From an uncultured Mycoplasmatota bacterium (GTDB taxonomy: Bacteria; Bacillota_I; Bacilli_A; RF39; UBA660), in NCBI GenBank assembly GCA_946490195.1, contig CAMLWN010000003.1, positions 1-52,399 on the forward strand: a stretch of 52,399 bases of DNA, in the 5' to 3' direction. The position numbers and the translations under genes were made by a program. Within the stretch, counting starts at the first letter, position 1. Each line of letters opens with the position of its first letter. This document shows, piece by piece, positions 1,245 through 10,726 of this stretch. The notes under the pieces are model-generated. The model was not told the DNA's origin, made no database searches, and saw only the letters and a list, made by a program, of their open reading frames with translations.

Positions 1245-2462
1245 ATGGCAAGAATCGCAATTATTGGAGGAGGAGCATCCGGATTAACAGCAAGTATTTA
1301 TGCTTCTAAAAATCATAAGGTAACTATTTTTGAAAGAAACAATGTTTGTGGGAAAAAAATCACAATTACAGGAAATGGAAAATGCAATTATTGGAATGAA
1401 GATCAAGAGTTAAAACATTATCATAGCCACACTCCAGAAGCATTAAAAAGTTTCTTTGATACCTCTATACAAAAAGAAGTTGAAACTTTTTTTAATAACC
1501 TAGGAATATTTCCAAAAATAAAAAATGGCTATTATTATCCATATTCCATGCAAGCGACAAGTATCAGAAATGCTTTAGTAAAAAAAGCTCTGTCAAATAA
1601 TGTGAAAATCTTATATGATTTTTTAGTTGAAGAAATAGAAAAAGAAAATGATATATTTATTATTAACCCAAAAAAAGAGCACTTAGTTTTTGATAAAGTG
1701 GTGCTAGCTTGTGGATCAATGGCAGCTAAAAAAACAGGATCAGATGGAATAGGCTACGAATTAGCTAAAAGTTTTGGGCACAAAATAGTCAAGCCAGAAC
1801 CAACTCTTGTGCAATTAGTAAGTAACACCACATTTTTAAAAGATTGGCATGGTGTTCGATGCGAATCAGTGGTGTCTTTACACATTGAAGATAAATTATT
1901 TTGCCAAGAAAAGGGAGAAATACAACTTACAGATTATGGAGTAAGTGGTATCTGTATATTTAATATAAGCCGTTACGTAAAAGAAAATTTGCATGCTAAG
2001 AAAAAAATACTATTACATATAAATTTTCTTCCAGAATTTCAAAATTCATCTTCTAAAGAATTAGCAAATTGGTTAGATAAACGTGCTGAAAATTTAAAAG
2101 GCTATAGTCTAGAAGAAATGTTAGAAGGAATTTTACCATATAAACTCCTTTTTGTGGTTTTAAAAGAAGCTCATCGAAAAAAAGAAGAGCATTGGTTATC
2201 ATTAAAAGAAGAAGAAAAAATAAACTTAATTCAAAAAATAAAAGATTTTACTATCCCAATTATAGATACTTTAGACTTTGAACACGCCCAAGCTTGTTCA
2301 GGCGGAGTATCTTTACAAGAAATAGATATGAATACAATGGAGTCAAAACAAATTAAAAATTTATATATTCTAGGAGAGCTATTAGATGTAGACGGAGATT
2401 GTGGGGGATATAATCTGGGCTTTGCCTGGATGAGCGGGATAAAATGTGGAAAAAATTTATGA
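1245..2462 (+). CDS. FAD/NAD(P)-dependent flavoprotein, HI0933/YhiN (BaiN-like) family
   Basis: This is a flavoprotein of the HI0933/YhiN family, cytosolic oxidoreductases whose physiological substrate is mostly unknown; one gut member, BaiN, acts on bile acids. The dinucleotide-binding GGGASG motif is near residues 8-13. The family's GKKITITGNGKCN block follows at about 35-47, and the FAD-binding GGYNLGFAWMSG motif is near the C-terminus (about 386-397). At 405 aa the length matches the family. The start ATG has a strong GGGAGGAAA site about 5 nt upstream. It is separate from the HD gene downstream, which has its own promoter. The family assignment is firm; any link to bile-acid metabolism is not shown by the sequence. 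Confidence 0.88.
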   Translation: MARIAIIGGGASGLTASIYASKNHKVTIFERNNVCGKKITITGNGKCNYWNEDQELKHYHSHTPEALKSFFDTSIQKEVETFFNNLGIFPKIKNGYYYPYSMQATSIRNALVKKALSNNVKILYDFLVEEIEKENDIFIINPKKEHLVFDKVVLACGSMAAKKTGSDGIGYELAKSFGHKIVKPEPTLVQLVSNTTFLKDWHGVRCESVVSLHIEDKLFCQEKGEIQLTDYGVSGICIFNISRYVKENLHAKKKILLHINFLPEFQNSSSKELANWLDKRAENLKGYSLEEMLEGILPYKLLFVVLKEAHRKKEEHWLSLKEEEKINLIQKIKDFTIPIIDTLDFEHAQACSGGVSLQEIDMNTMESKQIKNLYILGELLDVDGDCGGYNLGFAWMSGIKCGKNL

Positions 2463-2561
2463 GTGTGAAATAAATTGGATAAATCATAATACTAATTTCT
2501 ATGAACTCCTTTTTTAAAATACAATAAAATAGTATAAAAGTTTTAATAATCTATATCATAT

Positions 2562-2589
2562 TTGCATTTTTTTTGAAATATGATATAAT
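2562..2589 (+). promoter_or_regulatory. Sigma-A-type promoter of the HD hydrolase gene
   Basis: A -35 TTGCAT (2562-2567) and a perfect -10 TATAAT (2584-2589) are separated by 16 nt, 25 nt before the start codon of the HD-domain gene. Confidence 0.6.
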
Positions 2590-2613
2590 GATAAAGTCCG
2601 AGGTGAAAAGATA

Positions 2614-3111
2614 ATGAGTTTGAAAAAAGCTTATGAATTTGACCAGATTGTAAATGATATTGCAAATCATGAACAATTTTTGCTGTTAAAACATGAACTT
2701 CATCATGGAATCAGTCGATATGAACATTCGATGCGAGTTGCAAAAATGACATATTCCGTAACAAAAAAAATGCATTTGGATTATGAAAGAGCAACGAGAG
2801 CAGCATTACTTCATGATTTTTATACCGATAAAGATACGGAAAGTTATACAACAAAAGAAACGTTTAAAGTTCATCCTAAAATAGCAGTTATGAATGCTAA
2901 AAAATATTTTGATATAGATGCAAAGCAGGAAAATATGATTGAATCTCATATGTTTCCAGCAGCGTTGACAATGCCAAAATATACAGAAAGTTGGATTATT
3001 ACAGGAGCAGATAAAGTAATTGCTTCTCATGAGATGTATCGATATAAAGCTCAAATGGTTTTAGGAATATGGTTAATATTTTTATTTAACGTGATAGCGA
3101 TTCAAAAATAG
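2614..3111 (+). CDS. HD-domain phosphohydrolase
   Basis: This small HD-superfamily metal-dependent phosphohydrolase probably acts on a nucleotide or nucleotide-like phosphate. The metal ligands are visible: His38 in EHSMRVA, His67-Asp68 in LLHD, and a downstream Asp in the GADKV segment (about residue 132). The C-terminal 20 residues are strongly hydrophobic (GIWLIFLFNVIAI), so the protein may be tethered to the membrane by its tail. ATG 2614 follows an AGGTGAAAAG ribosome-binding site. A promoter precedes it and the pilus promoter follows, so it is probably transcribed alone. The exact substrate cannot be told from sequence. Confidence 0.75.
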   Translation: MSLKKAYEFDQIVNDIANHEQFLLLKHELHHGISRYEHSMRVAKMTYSVTKKMHLDYERATRAALLHDFYTDKDTESYTTKETFKVHPKIAVMNAKKYFDIDAKQENMIESHMFPAALTMPKYTESWIITGADKVIASHEMYRYKAQMVLGIWLIFLFNVIAIQK

Positions 3112-3121
3112 TTTTTTTGGA

Positions 3122-3150
3122 TTGTTATCCGTCTTTTTTTTTGATATAAT
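3122..3150 (+). promoter_or_regulatory. Promoter of the Tad pilus operon
   Basis: TTGTTA (3122-3127), a 17-nt spacer and TATAAT (3145-3150) precede the Flp pilin start by 24 nt. A ribosome-binding site AGGGGAG lies between. It is the only good promoter seen before the pilus genes, whose members overlap or nearly touch until TadC. Confidence 0.65.
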
Positions 3151-3174
3151 ATTGAAAGAATAGGGGAGTAAGTT

Positions 3175-3393
3175 ATGAATCGTAGGGGTCAAGCTTTAGT
3201 AGAGTATGTGTTAATTATTGCTTTAATCAGTGTAATAACAATCAGCATTGTGTCTTATTTTGGAGGCTATTTAAAAGATGCTATAACAAAATCTTCATGT
3301 GGCATTGCCGACAAAGTCTATGTTGAAGGAGAAAAACCAGGAGAAGCTAAATGCGTTTCTGAAAGCGAGTTAGAGGAAATGCAAAAGGAATGA
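3175..3393 (+). CDS. flp: Flp/Tad-type pilin (class III signal peptide)
   Basis: This is a short pilin of the Flp family, the main subunit of Tad pili. The N-terminus has the class III signal: a basic leader ending in Gly (MNRRG), then QALVEY with the conserved Glu at +5, then about 20 hydrophobic residues (YVLIIALISVITISIVSYF). After cleavage the mature protein would be about 67 aa, with an acidic, Lys-rich tail and two Cys that could form a disulfide. It opens the Tad operon. A 20-nt stretch encoding GQALVE is identical in the next gene, which suggests duplication. No prepilin peptidase (TadV) is in the window, so it must be encoded elsewhere. Confidence 0.8.
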   Translation: MNRRGQALVEYVLIIALISVITISIVSYFGGYLKDAITKSSCGIADKVYVEGEKPGEAKCVSESELEEMQKE

Positions 3394-3399
3394 TGAAAC

Positions 3400-3750
3400 A
3401 TGAAAAAGAAAAGGGGTCAAGCTTTAGTAGAATTCGTTATCATATTGCCAATTTTTGTTTTTATGGTACTTGCAATTATTGATATTGGAAAAATTTTGTT
3501 CATGCGAAACGAACTAGAAAATGAATTGAGTGACGTGATTGATTTATATCGTAACCAAAAAACGTATGATGAAATAACTAACGAATTAAAAAAACAAGAT
3601 GAAGATATTTTATTGGAAGTAAAAAATAATGATAATGAAACAGTAACATTTTATTTAAAAAAAGAAGTAGAAATAATCACACCTGGATTAAATTTGATTT
3701 TTGAAAACCCTTATACCTTAAAAGTACAAAGAGTGATAGGCTATGAATAA
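3400..3750 (+). CDS. TadE-like pseudopilin
   Basis: This TadE-like minor pilin has a basic leader, the processing motif RGQALVEF with Glu at +5, and a hydrophobic helix (VIILPIFVFMVLAIIDIGKIL) at about residues 12-32. The extracytoplasmic part of about 80 residues is charged and has no Cys. TadE/TadF-type pseudopilins are processed like Flp and are needed for pilus assembly. The start lies 6 nt after the flp stop, and the end overlaps the next gene by 8 nt, so the genes are translationally coupled. The pilin-like N-terminus is certain; assignment to TadE rather than TadF/G is by position and length. Confidence 0.75.
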   Translation: MKKKRGQALVEFVIILPIFVFMVLAIIDIGKILFMRNELENELSDVIDLYRNQKTYDEITNELKKQDEDILLEVKNNDNETVTFYLKKEVEIITPGLNLIFENPYTLKVQRVIGYE

Positions 3751-4114
3751 AAAAGGACAAACATTAATTTTATTCGTGATTTTAATTCCGATTTTAGTTA
3801 CTATTACAGCAGTAGTGGTTGACATTGGCACTTTAGAGTTTACCTACCAAAAACTAAAAGGAATTGTTGATGAAAGTATCAAAGAATACTATCTGAAAGA
3901 TGGAAGAAACTCTATGGAAGCCACTTTAGAATACAATGATTTATCTAAAGAACTTTATAAAATTTCGGAAAGCGATAATGAAGTAAATGTATATTTGACC
4001 TATGAAATGGATTCCATTTTTGGACGTCTTATTAATATTCCTTCCTATGAAATAATTGTGAATCGTAAAGGAAGAATAGAAATGGACCAAATTATTATTG
4101 AAGAAGGAGACTAA
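3743..4114 (+). CDS. TadE/TadG-like pseudopilin
   Basis: This second TadE/G-like protein starts KKGQTLILFVILIPILV, with a Gly-terminated basic leader and a long hydrophobic segment at about residues 8-28, then the TadE-type VVDIGTLEF. It lacks the Glu at +5 (Leu is found), which is usual for TadG-like proteins that stay membrane-anchored rather than being processed as pilins. The remaining 90 residues are extracytoplasmic and acidic. It overlaps the previous gene by 8 nt and lies 4 nt before tadZ. It probably links the pilus base to the envelope; the exact Tad role is inferred from gene order. Confidence 0.65.
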   Translation: MNKKGQTLILFVILIPILVTITAVVVDIGTLEFTYQKLKGIVDESIKEYYLKDGRNSMEATLEYNDLSKELYKISESDNEVNVYLTYEMDSIFGRLINIPSYEIIVNRKGRIEMDQIIIEEGD

Positions 4115-4117
4115 AAA

Positions 4118-4906
4118 ATGAAAAGAAAAACAGGAAAAAGCATTTGTTTATTCTCAGGAAAAGGTGGAGTTGGAAAAACCGTTTTAACTTTAAATTTAGC
4201 AGGAATATACAAAATGATTGGCAAAAAAGTATTAATAATGGACTTAGATTTATCTAGTGGAGGAATTTCCCTAGCCACAAACAAGCCTTCTGAAAAAAAT
4301 ATTTACACTTTAGTGGATGATCATAATAACAATCGTTTTCGTAATTTTCAAGATTATGTCGTAAAATATACAGAAAAAATAGATATACTTGCTAGCCCTA
4401 AAGATCCAAGACAAGCTTCGAAAATTGACTCAAAATACATTGAAATAGCCATTGACAAAGCTGAGTATTTATATGATGTAGTATTAATTGATACAAATCA
4501 TAATTTGAATGAAGTAAACCTAGTCATTTTAGATGCGGTAAAAAGCATTTTATTTGTAATGAACAATGACCCTATGGATTTAAAAAACATGAAAAGTCTA
4601 TTATCGATTTTCCGCGACTTAAAAAAAGAGAATTACAAAATCGTTTTAAATAATGCAAGAGACCCAATGAAAAAATATTTTACTCTTTTTGATATGAAAA
4701 ATATTATTAAAGCAAATATTGATTATGTAATATCAGAAGAATTCTATGTAAAAAATATAGACAATTATATTATGAATGGAGAAATCATTACCTTGCAAAA
4801 AAAAGCAGCAAGTGTATTTAACAAAGATTATACCACTCTAATGAAAATCGCTACGGATTTATATGGAAAGGAGGAACAAGAAAGTCATGAAGAAGAGCTT
4901 AGTTGA
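4118..4906 (+). CDS. tadZ: TadZ/CpaE-like ParA/MinD-family ATPase
   Basis: This P-loop ATPase of the ParA/MinD superfamily sits in the Tad locus, where TadZ/CpaE proteins position the pilus machine, often at the pole. The deviant Walker A motif SGKGGVGKT lies at residues 13-21. The Walker A' block VLIMDLDLSSGG is at about 38-49 and the Walker B-type VVLIDTNHN at about 124-132. Its 262 aa contain only the ATPase domain; the N-terminal receiver domain of many CpaE proteins is absent. The 3' end overlaps tadA by 20 nt, which indicates coupled translation. MinD as such is unlikely because of the neighbours. Confidence 0.82.
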   Translation: MKRKTGKSICLFSGKGGVGKTVLTLNLAGIYKMIGKKVLIMDLDLSSGGISLATNKPSEKNIYTLVDDHNNNRFRNFQDYVVKYTEKIDILASPKDPRQASKIDSKYIEIAIDKAEYLYDVVLIDTNHNLNEVNLVILDAVKSILFVMNNDPMDLKNMKSLLSIFRDLKKENYKIVLNNARDPMKKYFTLFDMKNIIKANIDYVISEEFYVKNIDNYIMNGEIITLQKKAASVFNKDYTTLMKIATDLYGKEEQESHEEELS

Positions 4907-6218
4907 AGCCTTTAATATTGAAAGAAAACCCCAAAAAACAGTTTATGTATCCGATTATGAAATATTCCCAGATAAAAAACTTCTAGATGATTTAAGAACC
5001 AAAATTGTTGAAAATTTAATTGATAAAGAAATACCCGAAGATAAGTTATTAAATCAATTTATTAATGACGAAATTGATAGAACGATTGAAGGATACGATT
5101 TGTCCAATCTAGAACGTAGCCATTTATACAATTTGATTGATAACGAAATCAATGGCTATGGACCTTTAACAGAGCTTTTAGAAGACAAAAACATCACCGA
5201 AATCATGGTAAATAGTCCAAAGGAGATTTATATTGAAATTGATGGCCAAATTATTAAAGACGAAAGTGTTTCATTTATAAATGACGAACACATTATAAGA
5301 ACGATTGAAAGAATGATCGGACCAATGGGAAGAACAATAGATGCCACCAATCCAATGGTTGACTCGAGATTAAAAGATGGTTCTAGAATTAATGCGGTTA
5401 TTCCTCCTTTAAGTACAAAAGGACCAGTTATTACAATAAGAAAATTTAGAGGAGAAATGACTAAAGCAGACGACATGATTCGTATTGGTTCCATGACTCC
5501 ATACATGGCAACATTCTTAGAAGCAGCAGTTAAAGGAAAATGTAATATCATCGTTTGTGGAGGAACTGGTTCAGGAAAAACAACTCTATTAAATATTTTA
5601 AGTAGTTTTATTCCTGATGACGAACGTATCATAACAATTGAGGATGCTGCAGAATTAAAATTAGAAAAAGAGCATGTAATATCCTTAGAAACACGAGTAA
5701 CAAATTACGACAACGAAGGTGAGATTACGATTCGTGATTTAGTTATCAATGCACTTCGAATGCGACCAGATAGAATTATTGTTGGTGAAGTAAGAGGAAA
5801 AGAAGCATTCGATATGTTACAAGCAATGAATACTGGACATGAAGGTTCACTTACAACACTACATGCAAATGGACCAAAAGATGCTTTAAACCGTCTTGAG
5901 ACAATGGTGTTAATGAGTGGTTTAGATATACCCATTAGAGCAATTAGAGAATACATTGCAAGTGCGATAGATTTAGTTGTAAATATTGAAAGAATGAGTG
6001 ACGGAAAAAGAAAAATTACAGCCATTTCAGAACTTGAGAAATTTGAAGATGGTGAATTAGAACTTCGAGATATTTTTGCTTTTCGTCAGAAAGGTTTAAC
6101 ATCATCCGGAGAAGTAGATGGTGAATACATTCTTTACGACCAACAATTACCTAAAGTTTATAAAAAAATAGTTACTAAAGGAATAACAGATATTGATTTT
6201 ATGTTTCATCAAAAATAA
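4887..6218 (+). CDS. tadA: TadA/CpaF secretion ATPase of the Tad pilus
   Basis: This is the hexameric GspE/VirB11-type ATPase that powers Tad pilus assembly at the cytoplasmic face. It has the family's helical N-terminal part, then GYGPLTELLED and ITEIMVNSP. Walker A is GGTGSGKTT near residue 230, the Asp box IITIEDAAEL lies at about 252-261, and the Walker B region RPDRIIVGEVRG and His box TGHEGSLTTLHAN follow. The start is ATG 4887, with a perfect AAAGGAGG site about 13 nt upstream. A longer in-frame reading from 4863 has no such site. The protein is then 443 aa, normal for CpaF. It overlaps tadZ by 20 nt and is followed 18 nt later by tadB. Confidence 0.92.
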   Translation: MKKSLVEAFNIERKPQKTVYVSDYEIFPDKKLLDDLRTKIVENLIDKEIPEDKLLNQFINDEIDRTIEGYDLSNLERSHLYNLIDNEINGYGPLTELLEDKNITEIMVNSPKEIYIEIDGQIIKDESVSFINDEHIIRTIERMIGPMGRTIDATNPMVDSRLKDGSRINAVIPPLSTKGPVITIRKFRGEMTKADDMIRIGSMTPYMATFLEAAVKGKCNIIVCGGTGSGKTTLLNILSSFIPDDERIITIEDAAELKLEKEHVISLETRVTNYDNEGEITIRDLVINALRMRPDRIIVGEVRGKEAFDMLQAMNTGHEGSLTTLHANGPKDALNRLETMVLMSGLDIPIRAIREYIASAIDLVVNIERMSDGKRKITAISELEKFEDGELELRDIFAFRQKGLTSSGEVDGEYILYDQQLPKVYKKIVTKGITDIDFMFHQK

Positions 6219-8001: not shown

Positions 8002-9444
8002 ATGAACGATAACTTAAGTTTTAAAAATATATTTAAACGAGAAACCAAATTAGCAACATATATTGTTATTTGTATGACGATTGTTGTACTAAGTCTTTCA
8101 TATGCCATGTTTTTCAAAGTAGATGGAAATAGTAAAAATCAAGTAGTTGAAGCAGGAGATTTAGTATTTACCTATGAAAATTCATCACAAACAATTACAT
8201 CAGAAGGAAAAGAAAGTTGTTTCATGCCAATGAGTGTAGAGGAAACGAAACTCTATTTAGGAACATGTGATTATAAATTAAGTGTCCAAAATACAGGAAG
8301 TTTAAAAGGAGCATACACATTAAGACTCATAGCTAATGAAGCAAACACAATAGAAGCACATAAATTAAAAGTGGTTTTAAGAAGACAGGAAGGAGAAAGT
8401 TTTCAAGTCGTAAATGGATATGAAAATGGGAAAACAGTAAGTGAATTAACAGATGGAATACTTATAGAAGATGAAGAAATGGAACAAAATAGTACCACAG
8501 TTTACAGTGTATCCCTAATTATAGATGAAAGTGTAGCAACAGAAGAAGACACATCCAAAGTATTATCCTATAAAATAGAAGGAACAGGATTAGTACATGA
8601 AAGTCAAGATATTCATACTGATCCGACTTATTGTGAGAAAAATCCACAAACAAGCGCATGTGAAATCTTAGCCAAAGGAGAAACAGATGAATTAAAGTTT
8701 GATAATACACCAGATAACAATTTAAGATATATAGGAGCCAATCCAAATAATTATGTATCTTTTAATAATGAATTATGGAGAATCATCGGAGTATTTAATA
8801 ATATCGATGATGGAACAGGAACAAAAGAAACTAGATTAAAAATTATAAAAAATGAACCATATAACACGGGTACAGCAACAGTATGGGATAGTGAAAACTC
8901 AAACGATTGGACAACAGCAAGTTTACAAGAAGAATTAAATGGAAATTACCTAACTAGTATAGAAAATTCATATCAAGAAATGATAGGAAATGCTAAATGG
9001 AACCTAGGAGGATTATGGAGTTCAACATATATCCCATCAAGTATCTATACATCAGAAAGAGGTACGACAGTATCCAGTGGGCATGCAACAGAATGGATAG
9101 GCAAAATAGGATTAATGTATCCAAGTGACTATGGATATGCAACCAGTGGAGGAAGTACAACGAATAGAGAAACATGTTTAAATACAGAATTACTCAGTTG
9201 GCGTGAATATGATAATTGTTTCAACAATGATTGGCTATATGATAGTTCAAGTTGGCAATGGACCTTAACTTCTGATTCATTCTATTCGGACAACGTGTAC
9301 GGTGTGAGTAGTAGCGGCGCTGTCACTACCCTCAAAGCGTTCCGCTCGGGTAATGCTGTTTTCCCCGCCTTATATCTATCCTCTAACGTTAAAATAAGTG
9401 GAGGAGAAGGAACGGAAGATTCACCGTTCACCCTAAGTCTATAG
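8002..9444 (+). CDS. Secreted TasA/camelysin-like protein with a candidate hypervariable C-terminal domain
   Basis: This is an exported protein of 480 aa. A cytoplasmic leader is followed by one hydrophobic helix (LATYIVICMTIVVLSLSYAMFF, about 16-37) that ends in the SYA signature of TasA/camelysin-like secreted proteins. Residues 40-200 resemble that family's beta-sandwich (an NTGSLKGAYTLRL strand). After a Cys-rich linker comes a domain with NELWRIIGVF, WNLGGLWSS and PALYLSSNVKISGG, a C-terminal module I associate with surface proteins of gut Bacillota. The last 80 nt of that module differ sharply in base and codon use (separate entry). It stands between tadC and two prepilin-like genes and probably decorates the pilus or cell surface. 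AGGTGA precedes the ATG. Confidence 0.65.
   Translation: MNDNLSFKNIFKRETKLATYIVICMTIVVLSLSYAMFFKVDGNSKNQVVEAGDLVFTYENSSQTITSEGKESCFMPMSVEETKLYLGTCDYKLSVQNTGSLKGAYTLRLIANEANTIEAHKLKVVLRRQEGESFQVVNGYENGKTVSELTDGILIEDEEMEQNSTTVYSVSLIIDESVATEEDTSKVLSYKIEGTGLVHESQDIHTDPTYCEKNPQTSACEILAKGETDELKFDNTPDNNLRYIGANPNNYVSFNNELWRIIGVFNNIDDGTGTKETRLKIIKNEPYNTGTATVWDSENSNDWTTASLQEELNGNYLTSIENSYQEMIGNAKWNLGGLWSSTYIPSSIYTSERGTTVSSGHATEWIGKIGLMYPSDYGYATSGGSTTNRETCLNTELLSWREYDNCFNNDWLYDSSSWQWTLTSDSFYSDNVYGVSSSGAVTTLKAFRSGNAVFPALYLSSNVKISGGEGTEDSPFTLSL
9286..9380 (+). other. GC-rich, C-ending-codon patch: candidate retroelement variable region
   Basis: In a gene of roughly 35% GC, positions 9301-9360 are 57% GC (34 of 60). 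Of the 28 codons from 9286 to 9369, 13 end in C (GAC, AAC, TAC, AGC, GGC, GTC, ACC, CTC, TTC, CGC, TTC, CCC, GCC), while NNC codons are rare elsewhere in the gene. The patch is at the C-terminus, where diversity-generating retroelements place their variable repeat, and AAC template codons mutated at adenines give NNC codons. A hairpin follows 83 nt later. No template repeat or reverse transcriptase is in the window, so this is a hypothesis; a recent recombination patch is the alternative. Confidence 0.4.
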
Positions 9445-9462
9445 AATACCTAAAAATGGGGC

Positions 9463-9486
9463 CCAGCCACGTGTAATAGTGGCAGG
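9463..9486 (+). other. Hairpin downstream of the variable-looking gene
   Basis: GCCAC (9466-9470) pairs with GTGGC (9479-9483) around an 8-nt loop, extended by CC/GG across an A-A mismatch. It lies in an unusually GC-rich intergenic patch (about 9456-9505) just after the stop codon. There is no T-run, so it is not a simple terminator. Hairpins downstream of variable repeats are known to guide retroelement retrohoming, which is why it is noted. Confidence 0.4.
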
Positions 9487-9549
9487 GGAGCGCACTCAGT
9501 TATCCACATAAAAAATCAAATTTTTTCAAGTACAAGGAATAGTGATGTT

Positions 9550-10104
9550 ATGAATAAAAAAGGATTTATTTTTATTGAAACGATTATTGTGACAGCTGTT
9601 TTACTAGCATCTTTGATGCTAGTTTATTCCTTGTATGTTTCATCTTTGAGTGCTGAAACTATAAGGATTCGTTATGATGATCCAGTAAAATTATATGAAA
9701 CTTTTTATGTAAAAAAATATTTAGAAAGTTTTAATTTAAATCTTTTAAAAGAAAGAATCAATAATGGAGAACCATATCAAATGATTTATCGAGGTCAAAG
9801 TGATATCTTTGGAAGTTCTTACACTGCTGAAAAAGTATTTTTTGAAAATTTATGGATGGAATTAAATATTCGTAGTATTATTCTAATTCCATATAATGTA
9901 TCTACGTTAGTGGAATGTACATCTTCAAATACCGCGGCTATTTGTTCAAATTCAAGTTTGCTAGGCTATCTAAAAACTTTAGACGATGGAGATGAAAATT
10001 CGTATCGTTTAGTTATTGAATATGCGATGGATGCATCAGGTAATAGCTGTACAAGTAACATTGGGTGCTTTTATTACTATTCCAGCGTAAAGGTAGGTGC
10101 ATGA
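9550..10104 (+). CDS. Type IV prepilin-like protein
   Basis: This minor-pilin-like protein starts with a basic leader MNKKG and then FIFIETIIV. That is the N-methylation signal of type IV prepilins, with Phe at +1 and Glu at +5. A hydrophobic helix follows to about residue 32. The remaining 150 residues are extracytoplasmic and contain two Cys pairs (near residues 123/131 and 169/174) likely to form disulfides. Type IV style prepilins next to a Tad operon suggest minor pilins that prime or cap the fibre. The stop lies 1 nt before the next prepilin start. The function beyond pilin-like is inferred. Confidence 0.65.
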   Translation: MNKKGFIFIETIIVTAVLLASLMLVYSLYVSSLSAETIRIRYDDPVKLYETFYVKKYLESFNLNLLKERINNGEPYQMIYRGQSDIFGSSYTAEKVFFENLWMELNIRSIILIPYNVSTLVECTSSNTAAICSNSSLLGYLKTLDDGDENSYRLVIEYAMDASGNSCTSNIGCFYYYSSVKVGA

Positions 10105-10105
10105 C

Positions 10106-10726
10106 ATGAATAAAAAAGGTATGACTTTAGTAGAGGTTATTATCAGTGTAGGCTTAATTTCCGTAGTTATGTTATTTTTATTTAATTTGCTTTTAGATAT
10201 GCAATATGAAAATAGTCATGCTTCCTATTTAAAAGAAAATCAAGTAAACAGAGCAACGATTATTAAGACTGTGGAAGAAGATTTAATGAATAATACCTTG
10301 AATGAAGTAAGAATAGAACGTAACGAATCCAATTCAATTATTCGTTTTGATTTTACCACTTTTGTTACAGAACTAACTGTTATGGCAGACAGAATTTCTT
10401 ATGAAGGAGAAACTTGGCTACTTGAAGCGAACGGGAATGATGAAGCATACTATGATTTCGAAAATGTAAAAGTAAATCCGGAACGAGACATAGAAAGTTG
10501 TTCATATAATTTAAATGTCGATTCTGATGGAGATGGAGTGTGTAATTACAACTGTGATACAAATAATAACGGAATTTTAGATGAAAGTGAGCGTTCAACT
10601 GTTAATGAAACTTTTAAATCCTGCTCTTCATTTAAATATTATAAAGTCATTGTTCCAGCTATTACTGGTTCAGAAGATAACATCATTGATGACTTAGAAT
10701 TTTTCTATATCGGAAGAACATTATAA
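10106..10726 (+). CDS. Type IV prepilin-like protein with a calcium-loop motif
   Basis: The N-terminus MNKKGMTLVEVIISVGLI is a textbook type IV prepilin signal (Gly at -1, Glu at +5) followed by a hydrophobic helix. The body is 206 aa with several Cys. Near the C-terminus (residues 139-162; bases 10520-10591) is DSDGDG followed by DTNNNGILDESE. This matches EF-hand/dockerin-type calcium loops (Asp1, Asn3, Asn5, Glu12), as in some minor pilins where Ca2+ modulates retraction. ATG 10106 follows AGGTAGGTG by 5 nt; an earlier in-frame start at 10097 overlaps the upstream gene. A terminator follows, closing the surface-pilus block. Confidence 0.68.
   Translation: MNKKGMTLVEVIISVGLISVVMLFLFNLLLDMQYENSHASYLKENQVNRATIIKTVEEDLMNNTLNEVRIERNESNSIIRFDFTTFVTELTVMADRISYEGETWLLEANGNDEAYYDFENVKVNPERDIESCSYNLNVDSDGDGVCNYNCDTNNNGILDESERSTVNETFKSCSSFKYYKVIVPAITGSEDNIIDDLEFFYIGRTL

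Follow-up and report, generated by a model that had tools for sequence, protein, structure and literature searches.

A probable remote variable repeat of a cellular diversity-generating retroelement within a type IV-filament locus of an uncultured Mycoplasmatota bacterium

Results

The target gene and its genomic neighbourhood

The window analysed here is a stretch of 52,399 nucleotides (contig CAMLWN010000003.1) from an uncultured Mycoplasmatota bacterium (GCA_946490195.1), the assembly of which (G000, with other contigs numbered C below) comprises 1.01 Mb and is 80% complete, 20% of the genome being unassembled. The forward strand between positions 3743 and 7945 encodes, according to Pfam, a TadE-like protein (a match under the curated cut-off), a MinD/ParA-like ATPase, a TadA-type secretion ATPase and two T2SSF membrane proteins. 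Downstream lies the target gene of this study (8002–9444, forward strand), taken from the list of open reading frames and coding for 480 aa, and then two prepilin-like genes whose N-terminal ends are of the methylation type (9550–10726, forward strand), the second of which matched Pfam N_methyl above the cut-off and the first below it. About 9–10 relatives of the target gene were found elsewhere in the same genome.

The target protein is composed of an N-terminal membrane segment, a conserved N-terminal half and a variable C-terminal domain (the last ~257 aa). The N-terminal part had been described as TasA-like in the initial annotation, but no match was detected for it in Pfam or NCBIfam. The C-terminal domain was modelled by AlphaFold2 with a pLDDT of 87 and its only strong match in the PDB search was the structure of the IgA peptidase of Thomasclavelia ramosa (E = 7.7e-7). 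This similarity says nothing about peptidase activity in the target protein. C-type lectins were retrieved in the same search at E > 1 only and a lectin fold is only weakly supported.

The GC content of the target gene was 33.5% (31.5% upstream of position 9259), with a GC-rich patch close to the 3′ end. The initial annotation had placed this patch at 9286–9380, assigned it 57% GC and suggested a possible origin in a diversity-generating retroelement (DGR), as its variable region. The jump in GC was confirmed, whereas the exact figure varied with the end chosen, from 53.7% (9286–9380) to 58.3% (9286–9369). Exactly 13 of 28 codons in 9286–9369 end in C, as had been counted, vs 41 of 419 earlier in the gene and 6 in the richest other stretch of 28 codons. 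The boundaries had to be moved: the template described below sets the repeat at 9267–9369 (forward strand, 103 bp, ungapped alignment), within the gene and near its 3′ end, as had been expected of a DGR target. This variable repeat (VR) encodes the part of the C-terminal domain that varies and spans approximately residues 200–233 of the domain model, where short strands with loops are predicted. The tail of the gene 3′ of the VR (9370–9444, forward strand; LYLSSNVKISGGEGTEDSPFTLSL) is conserved, being near-invariant across paralogs and relatives.

Prediction of the template and its identification on contig C24

In the codon alignment of the 3′ ends of the paralogs, the columns between CAATGGACCTTAACT and GCCTTATATCTA fell into two classes. 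Some were near-constant (GTG, TCG, GGC, GCG and CCC GCC), and the others had the form XXC/XXT with freely variable first and second bases, which is expected from adenine-specific mutation of AAC/AAT codons. Every variable codon of the alignment was set to AAY and the genome was searched with the resulting prediction. Both the skeleton pattern and the inferred sequence matched one place outside genes, C24:12466–12568 on the minus strand. This 103-nt template repeat (TR; AACTCCCAATTCCAGTAATTCGAACAACGTG...GATTCCCCCGCC) is located ~140 bp downstream of the C24 paralog of the target gene, between this paralog and the remnant of a reverse transcriptase (RT) gene.

The VR of the C24 paralog differed from the TR at 18 of 36 adenine positions and at 0 of 67 non-adenine positions (p = 1.7e-10). 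For the window VR the bias was weaker, with differences at 21/36 adenines and 18/67 other positions (p = 0.0018); 21 template adenines were lost and four gained (p = 0.0009), and the third positions of AAY codons were changed at 6 of 15. The window VR agreed with the TR at 49 of 67 non-adenine positions, in comparison with about 31 for the best independent place in the window (the second-best score, 32/67, came from a shifted overlap of the VR stretch). Because of the 18 non-adenine differences, which include AAY third positions, the window VR was not copied directly and recently from the assembled TR. We infer that it belongs to the repeat family of this TR, was written earlier or from a slightly different template and has since drifted. 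All congener templates were also tested as its source and none was clearly better than the TR of its own genome. In the paralogs on C9 and C14 the adenine bias relative to the TR was no longer visible.

The GC-rich 3′ end of the window VR (GTTTTCCCCGCC, 9358–9369, forward strand) and its TR counterpart GATTCCCCCGCC, delimited by comparison of TR and VR, are IMH-like and IMH*-like, respectively, and by analogy with the Bordetella phage BPP-1 system may act as such.

DGR cassettes in the genus

The TR sequence was matched in 17 genomes of the genus at E ≤ 0.01, a count which includes target genes. The sample comprised 37 genomes, with the pairs G008/G039, G012/G038, G036/G041, G010/G042 and G009/G040 being apparent duplicates with identical contig coordinates. 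Seven congener cassettes, each with its own template and target, showed the same A-specific pattern as the C24 pair, with 15–21 changes at adenines and 0–2 elsewhere (16/35 vs 0/64, 21/37 vs 1/64, 18/29 vs 0/72, 16/28 vs 1/67, 15/28 vs 0/71, 16/30 vs 2/64 and 21/36 vs 1/64, adenine vs non-adenine). These data are in agreement with the adenine-specific mutagenesis of AAC-type codons postulated initially.

Whole cassettes were arranged in the order target, TR, MutS domain I-like gene, Avd-like gene, RT and a small open reading frame. The RTs encoded beside the TR in congeners matched PF00078 and carried the motifs GLPIGN(M/L)(T/S)SQ and YMDD. The cassette of G012 was complete, with Avd-like and MutS_I-like genes and an RT containing GLPIGNMTSQ and YMDD, for which the closest PDB chain was the reverse transcriptase 8ub7 (E = 2.1e-17), which we take to be that of BPP-1. 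Matches to bAvd were obtained for G029 (E = 5.7e-13, above the cut-off) and G012 (E = 1.9e-5, below it), and the MutS-like gene matched PF01624 at E = 0.004 and 0.024, both under the curated cut-off. A pattern search of viral contigs revealed no relative of the cassette RT. In one locus (L232, G041:C32, ~1430–4840) the DGR RT was interrupted within GLPIG/NMTSQ by an element that carries three genes for tyrosine recombinases, and a contig of G039 (L233) starts at the same motif.

Variation of the target locus within the species

The same-species contig CALWZB010000139.1 (L180) was 99.66% identical to the window over 3.8 kb upstream of the target gene and 98.1% identical over the prepilin genes. 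Within the target gene, identity was 94.7% in the first 609 bp; the C-terminal domain was a different version with insertions (L180 4478–5404 vs window 8611–9444). The two VRs were 71% identical over just 59 bp and identity resumed directly after the VR. The patch thus differs within the species, as had been predicted for a DGR variable region, but the predicted confinement of variation to the patch did not hold, as the whole C-terminal domain differs at an otherwise near-identical locus. The target locus is therefore strongly variable within the species (or, if the contigs come from two very close species, between these), through whole-domain exchange and not in the patch alone. The two contigs look as if domains move between paralogs.

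Such exchange could also be read without any retroelement: as paralogs of a fast-evolving binding domain, the genes would have diverged through gene conversion and positive selection, and the jump in GC would reflect the codon bias of this domain. The moderate adenine bias of the window VR, taken alone, would fit this explanation too. It is, however, difficult to reconcile with a non-genic TR that has A at the variable bases and shows no non-adenine difference from the adjacent VR, or with the recurrence of the pattern in seven congener cassettes, most of which have RT and Avd. The TR–VR pattern strongly disfavours this reading, which we regard as very improbable. The window sequence 9267–9369 is instead very probably a remote VR of a cellular DGR family whose TR lies on C24. 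The initial proposal of a DGR variable region is supported by this template with A at the variable bases, placed beside the remnant of an RT operon.

The decayed cassette on C24 and the fate of the DGR

The alignment of the C24 locus with the G012 cassette broke off near codon 11 of the MutS-like gene and resumed within the RT. The deletion of ~1.4 kb encompasses most of the MutS-like gene, Avd and the catalytic part of the RT, with a short similarity of ~20 bp at the junction. The last ~98 residues of the RT were retained, in an open reading frame and 75% identical to the G012 RT. No complete RT for the C24 TR was present in the assembled 80% of the genome, and the only other assembled relative of the cassette RT in this genome was encoded on C12 (~30% identical). 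Of the RT and template that the initial annotation had placed elsewhere in the genome, the template was found and the RT was found in part, as the C24 remnant and a second DGR RT locus on C12.

The C12 locus (L031, G000:C12:22500–27736, positions 1944–5237) has a different type of target, with a VR ending in SFRVVLTP, a MutS-like gene, an Avd above the Pfam cut-off (E = 5.6e-21) and an RT with the motif IPIGNYTSQ, which represents a separate lineage, is frame-shifted near 5060 (L031 numbering) and is truncated by the contig end. Upstream of the target, three orphan copies of the C12 VR were detected (L031 392–538, 703–849 and 1012–1065, ~311 bp apart). They were rejected as the TR of the C12 locus, the changes not being A-specific, and are possibly a store of old variants. 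No Rfam match to a group II intron was obtained at the C12 contig end. Another RT, on C20 (L030, 5671–6579, minus strand), was rejected as a DGR RT, as it carries a QGAPTSP motif and is of retron type, closest to Ec107-like retrons according to PADLOC (E = 4.7e-103).

The clean TR–VR pair on C24 suggests either a recent loss of the RT or continued editing in trans. According to the first possibility, the window VR was written in the past and the DGR is now dead, so that the VR drifts under ordinary selection and is reshuffled solely by recombination between paralogs. The deletion that fuses the MutS-like gene to the 3′ end of the RT, the non-adenine changes of the window VR, the unbiased paralogs on C9 and C14 and the exchange of the whole C-terminal domain in the same-species contig all point in this direction. 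On the other hand, a fifth of the genome is unassembled and C12 carries a second DGR RT locus; the absence of non-adenine changes in the C24 VR and the open RT tail indicate that the loss, if real, was recent. On balance, a dead DGR seems to us only slightly short of an even chance.

The second possibility, which we consider rather unlikely, is that the scattered VRs are still edited in trans, with the C24 TR being read by the RT of C12 or by a copy missing from the assembly. DGR targets far from the RT have already been described (PMC4891356), and C12 carries an Avd above the cut-off and an RT with IPIGNYTSQ. Against this, the C12 RT is only ~30% identical to the cognate type and frame-shifted near the contig end, and the C12 target has a different VR.

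A conserved hairpin and a DnaA-box-like site downstream of the target gene

The GC-rich hairpin reported downstream of the patch was found at 9462–9487 (forward strand), 92 bp after the VR. It consists of 3 bp, an A.A mismatch and 5 bp with a loop of 8–9 nt and is a candidate DGR target-recognition element. The hairpin pattern occurred at 17 places in eight genomes of the genus, compared with none for the reversed-pattern control. All 16 assessable copies were located behind a VR gene, at 91–95 bp downstream of the repeat in those copies for which a distance was obtained. In the alignment, 99.2% of cells were paired and the structure is kept in relatives with compensatory base changes, seen in two of eight pairs and representing few independent events. 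No match for the hairpin was found in Rfam. The sequence TTATCCACA (9500–9508, forward strand), which is DnaA-box-like by the DnaA-box consensus, is present as a sole copy in the window and followed 16 of the 18 distinct hairpin elements without any mismatch, after a variable spacer of 9–12 nt.

Efficient homing in BPP-1 depends on a hairpin located shortly downstream of the VR (PMC3240598), and a recent study reports that the preferred target is set by the direction of replication (PMC12875486). A role of the hairpin as a DGR target tag is plausible by analogy with these findings. That the hairpin and TTATCCACA together form a portable tag, through which the editing of scattered surface genes by the DGR would be coupled to DnaA or replication, is an unlikely extension, and the DnaA link of TTATCCACA is speculation. 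If true, one template would control a family of filament-associated surface proteins.

Discussion

In the proposed mechanism, the TR RNA would be copied by the DGR RT together with Avd, with errors at template adenines, mostly in AAC/AAT codons, giving XXC/XXT codons and a jump in GC. In several target genes, including the one in the pilus locus, the cDNA would then replace the 3′-terminal VR, and the outcome would be a surface protein whose binding face can change. Most of the RT is missing from the C24 cassette of this strain, and therefore the window VR would now be either frozen or served in trans.

A DGR target of this type is known in kind and unusual in its setting, being remote and inside a type IV-filament locus, with a template found by prediction. 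The system resembles the BPP-1 DGR (mtd/avd/TR/brt; PMC3240598, PMC12875486) in its RT, Avd and TR with A-specific changes, in the GC-rich VR 3′ end followed by a hairpin and in 8ub7 being the best match of the G012 RT. Unlike that DGR, it is cellular and has several remote targets, a MutS-like accessory gene and a hairpin 91–95 bp after the VR, with a loop of 8–9 nt and an adjoining DnaA-box-like site. The hairpins of phage DGRs lie 4–34 bp from the VR (PMC3240598); the one described here is farther away and lacks the GRNA tetraloop.

Targets far from the core cassette are shared with the DGRs of Treponema denticola, some strains of which retain targets after the loss of the core, and in which a remote VR resembles the TR of another strain (PMC4891356). 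The accessory gene there is HRDC, in contrast to the MutS-like gene and Avd observed here, and the targets here include a gene within a type IV-filament locus. MutS-like (MSL) accessory genes of DGRs have been named and assigned to PF01624 (PMC10053308). A MutS domain I-like gene likewise lies between the TR and Avd/RT in the congener cassettes, although its PF01624 match is below the curated cut-off.

In the global survey of Roux et al. (PMC8144416), DGRs were enriched in Firmicutes and the human gut, and VR-bearing C-terminal regions were attached to varied N-terminal parts, as observed here. The targets of that survey differ from the present one, the VR of which is remote from the RT and for which a C-type lectin fold is only weakly supported; the survey states that VRs remote from the RT are undetectable by it (PMC8144416).

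The finding places a DGR-diversified protein in a type IV-filament locus of gut Bacilli with small genomes. There are several targets per genome and the template is distant from this one, a situation that a published metagenome survey would, by its own account, miss. Given the conserved putative target tag and an apparently recent natural deletion of the RT, two questions become testable: which feature singles out a remote target for editing, and what becomes of the targets after the loss of their writer.
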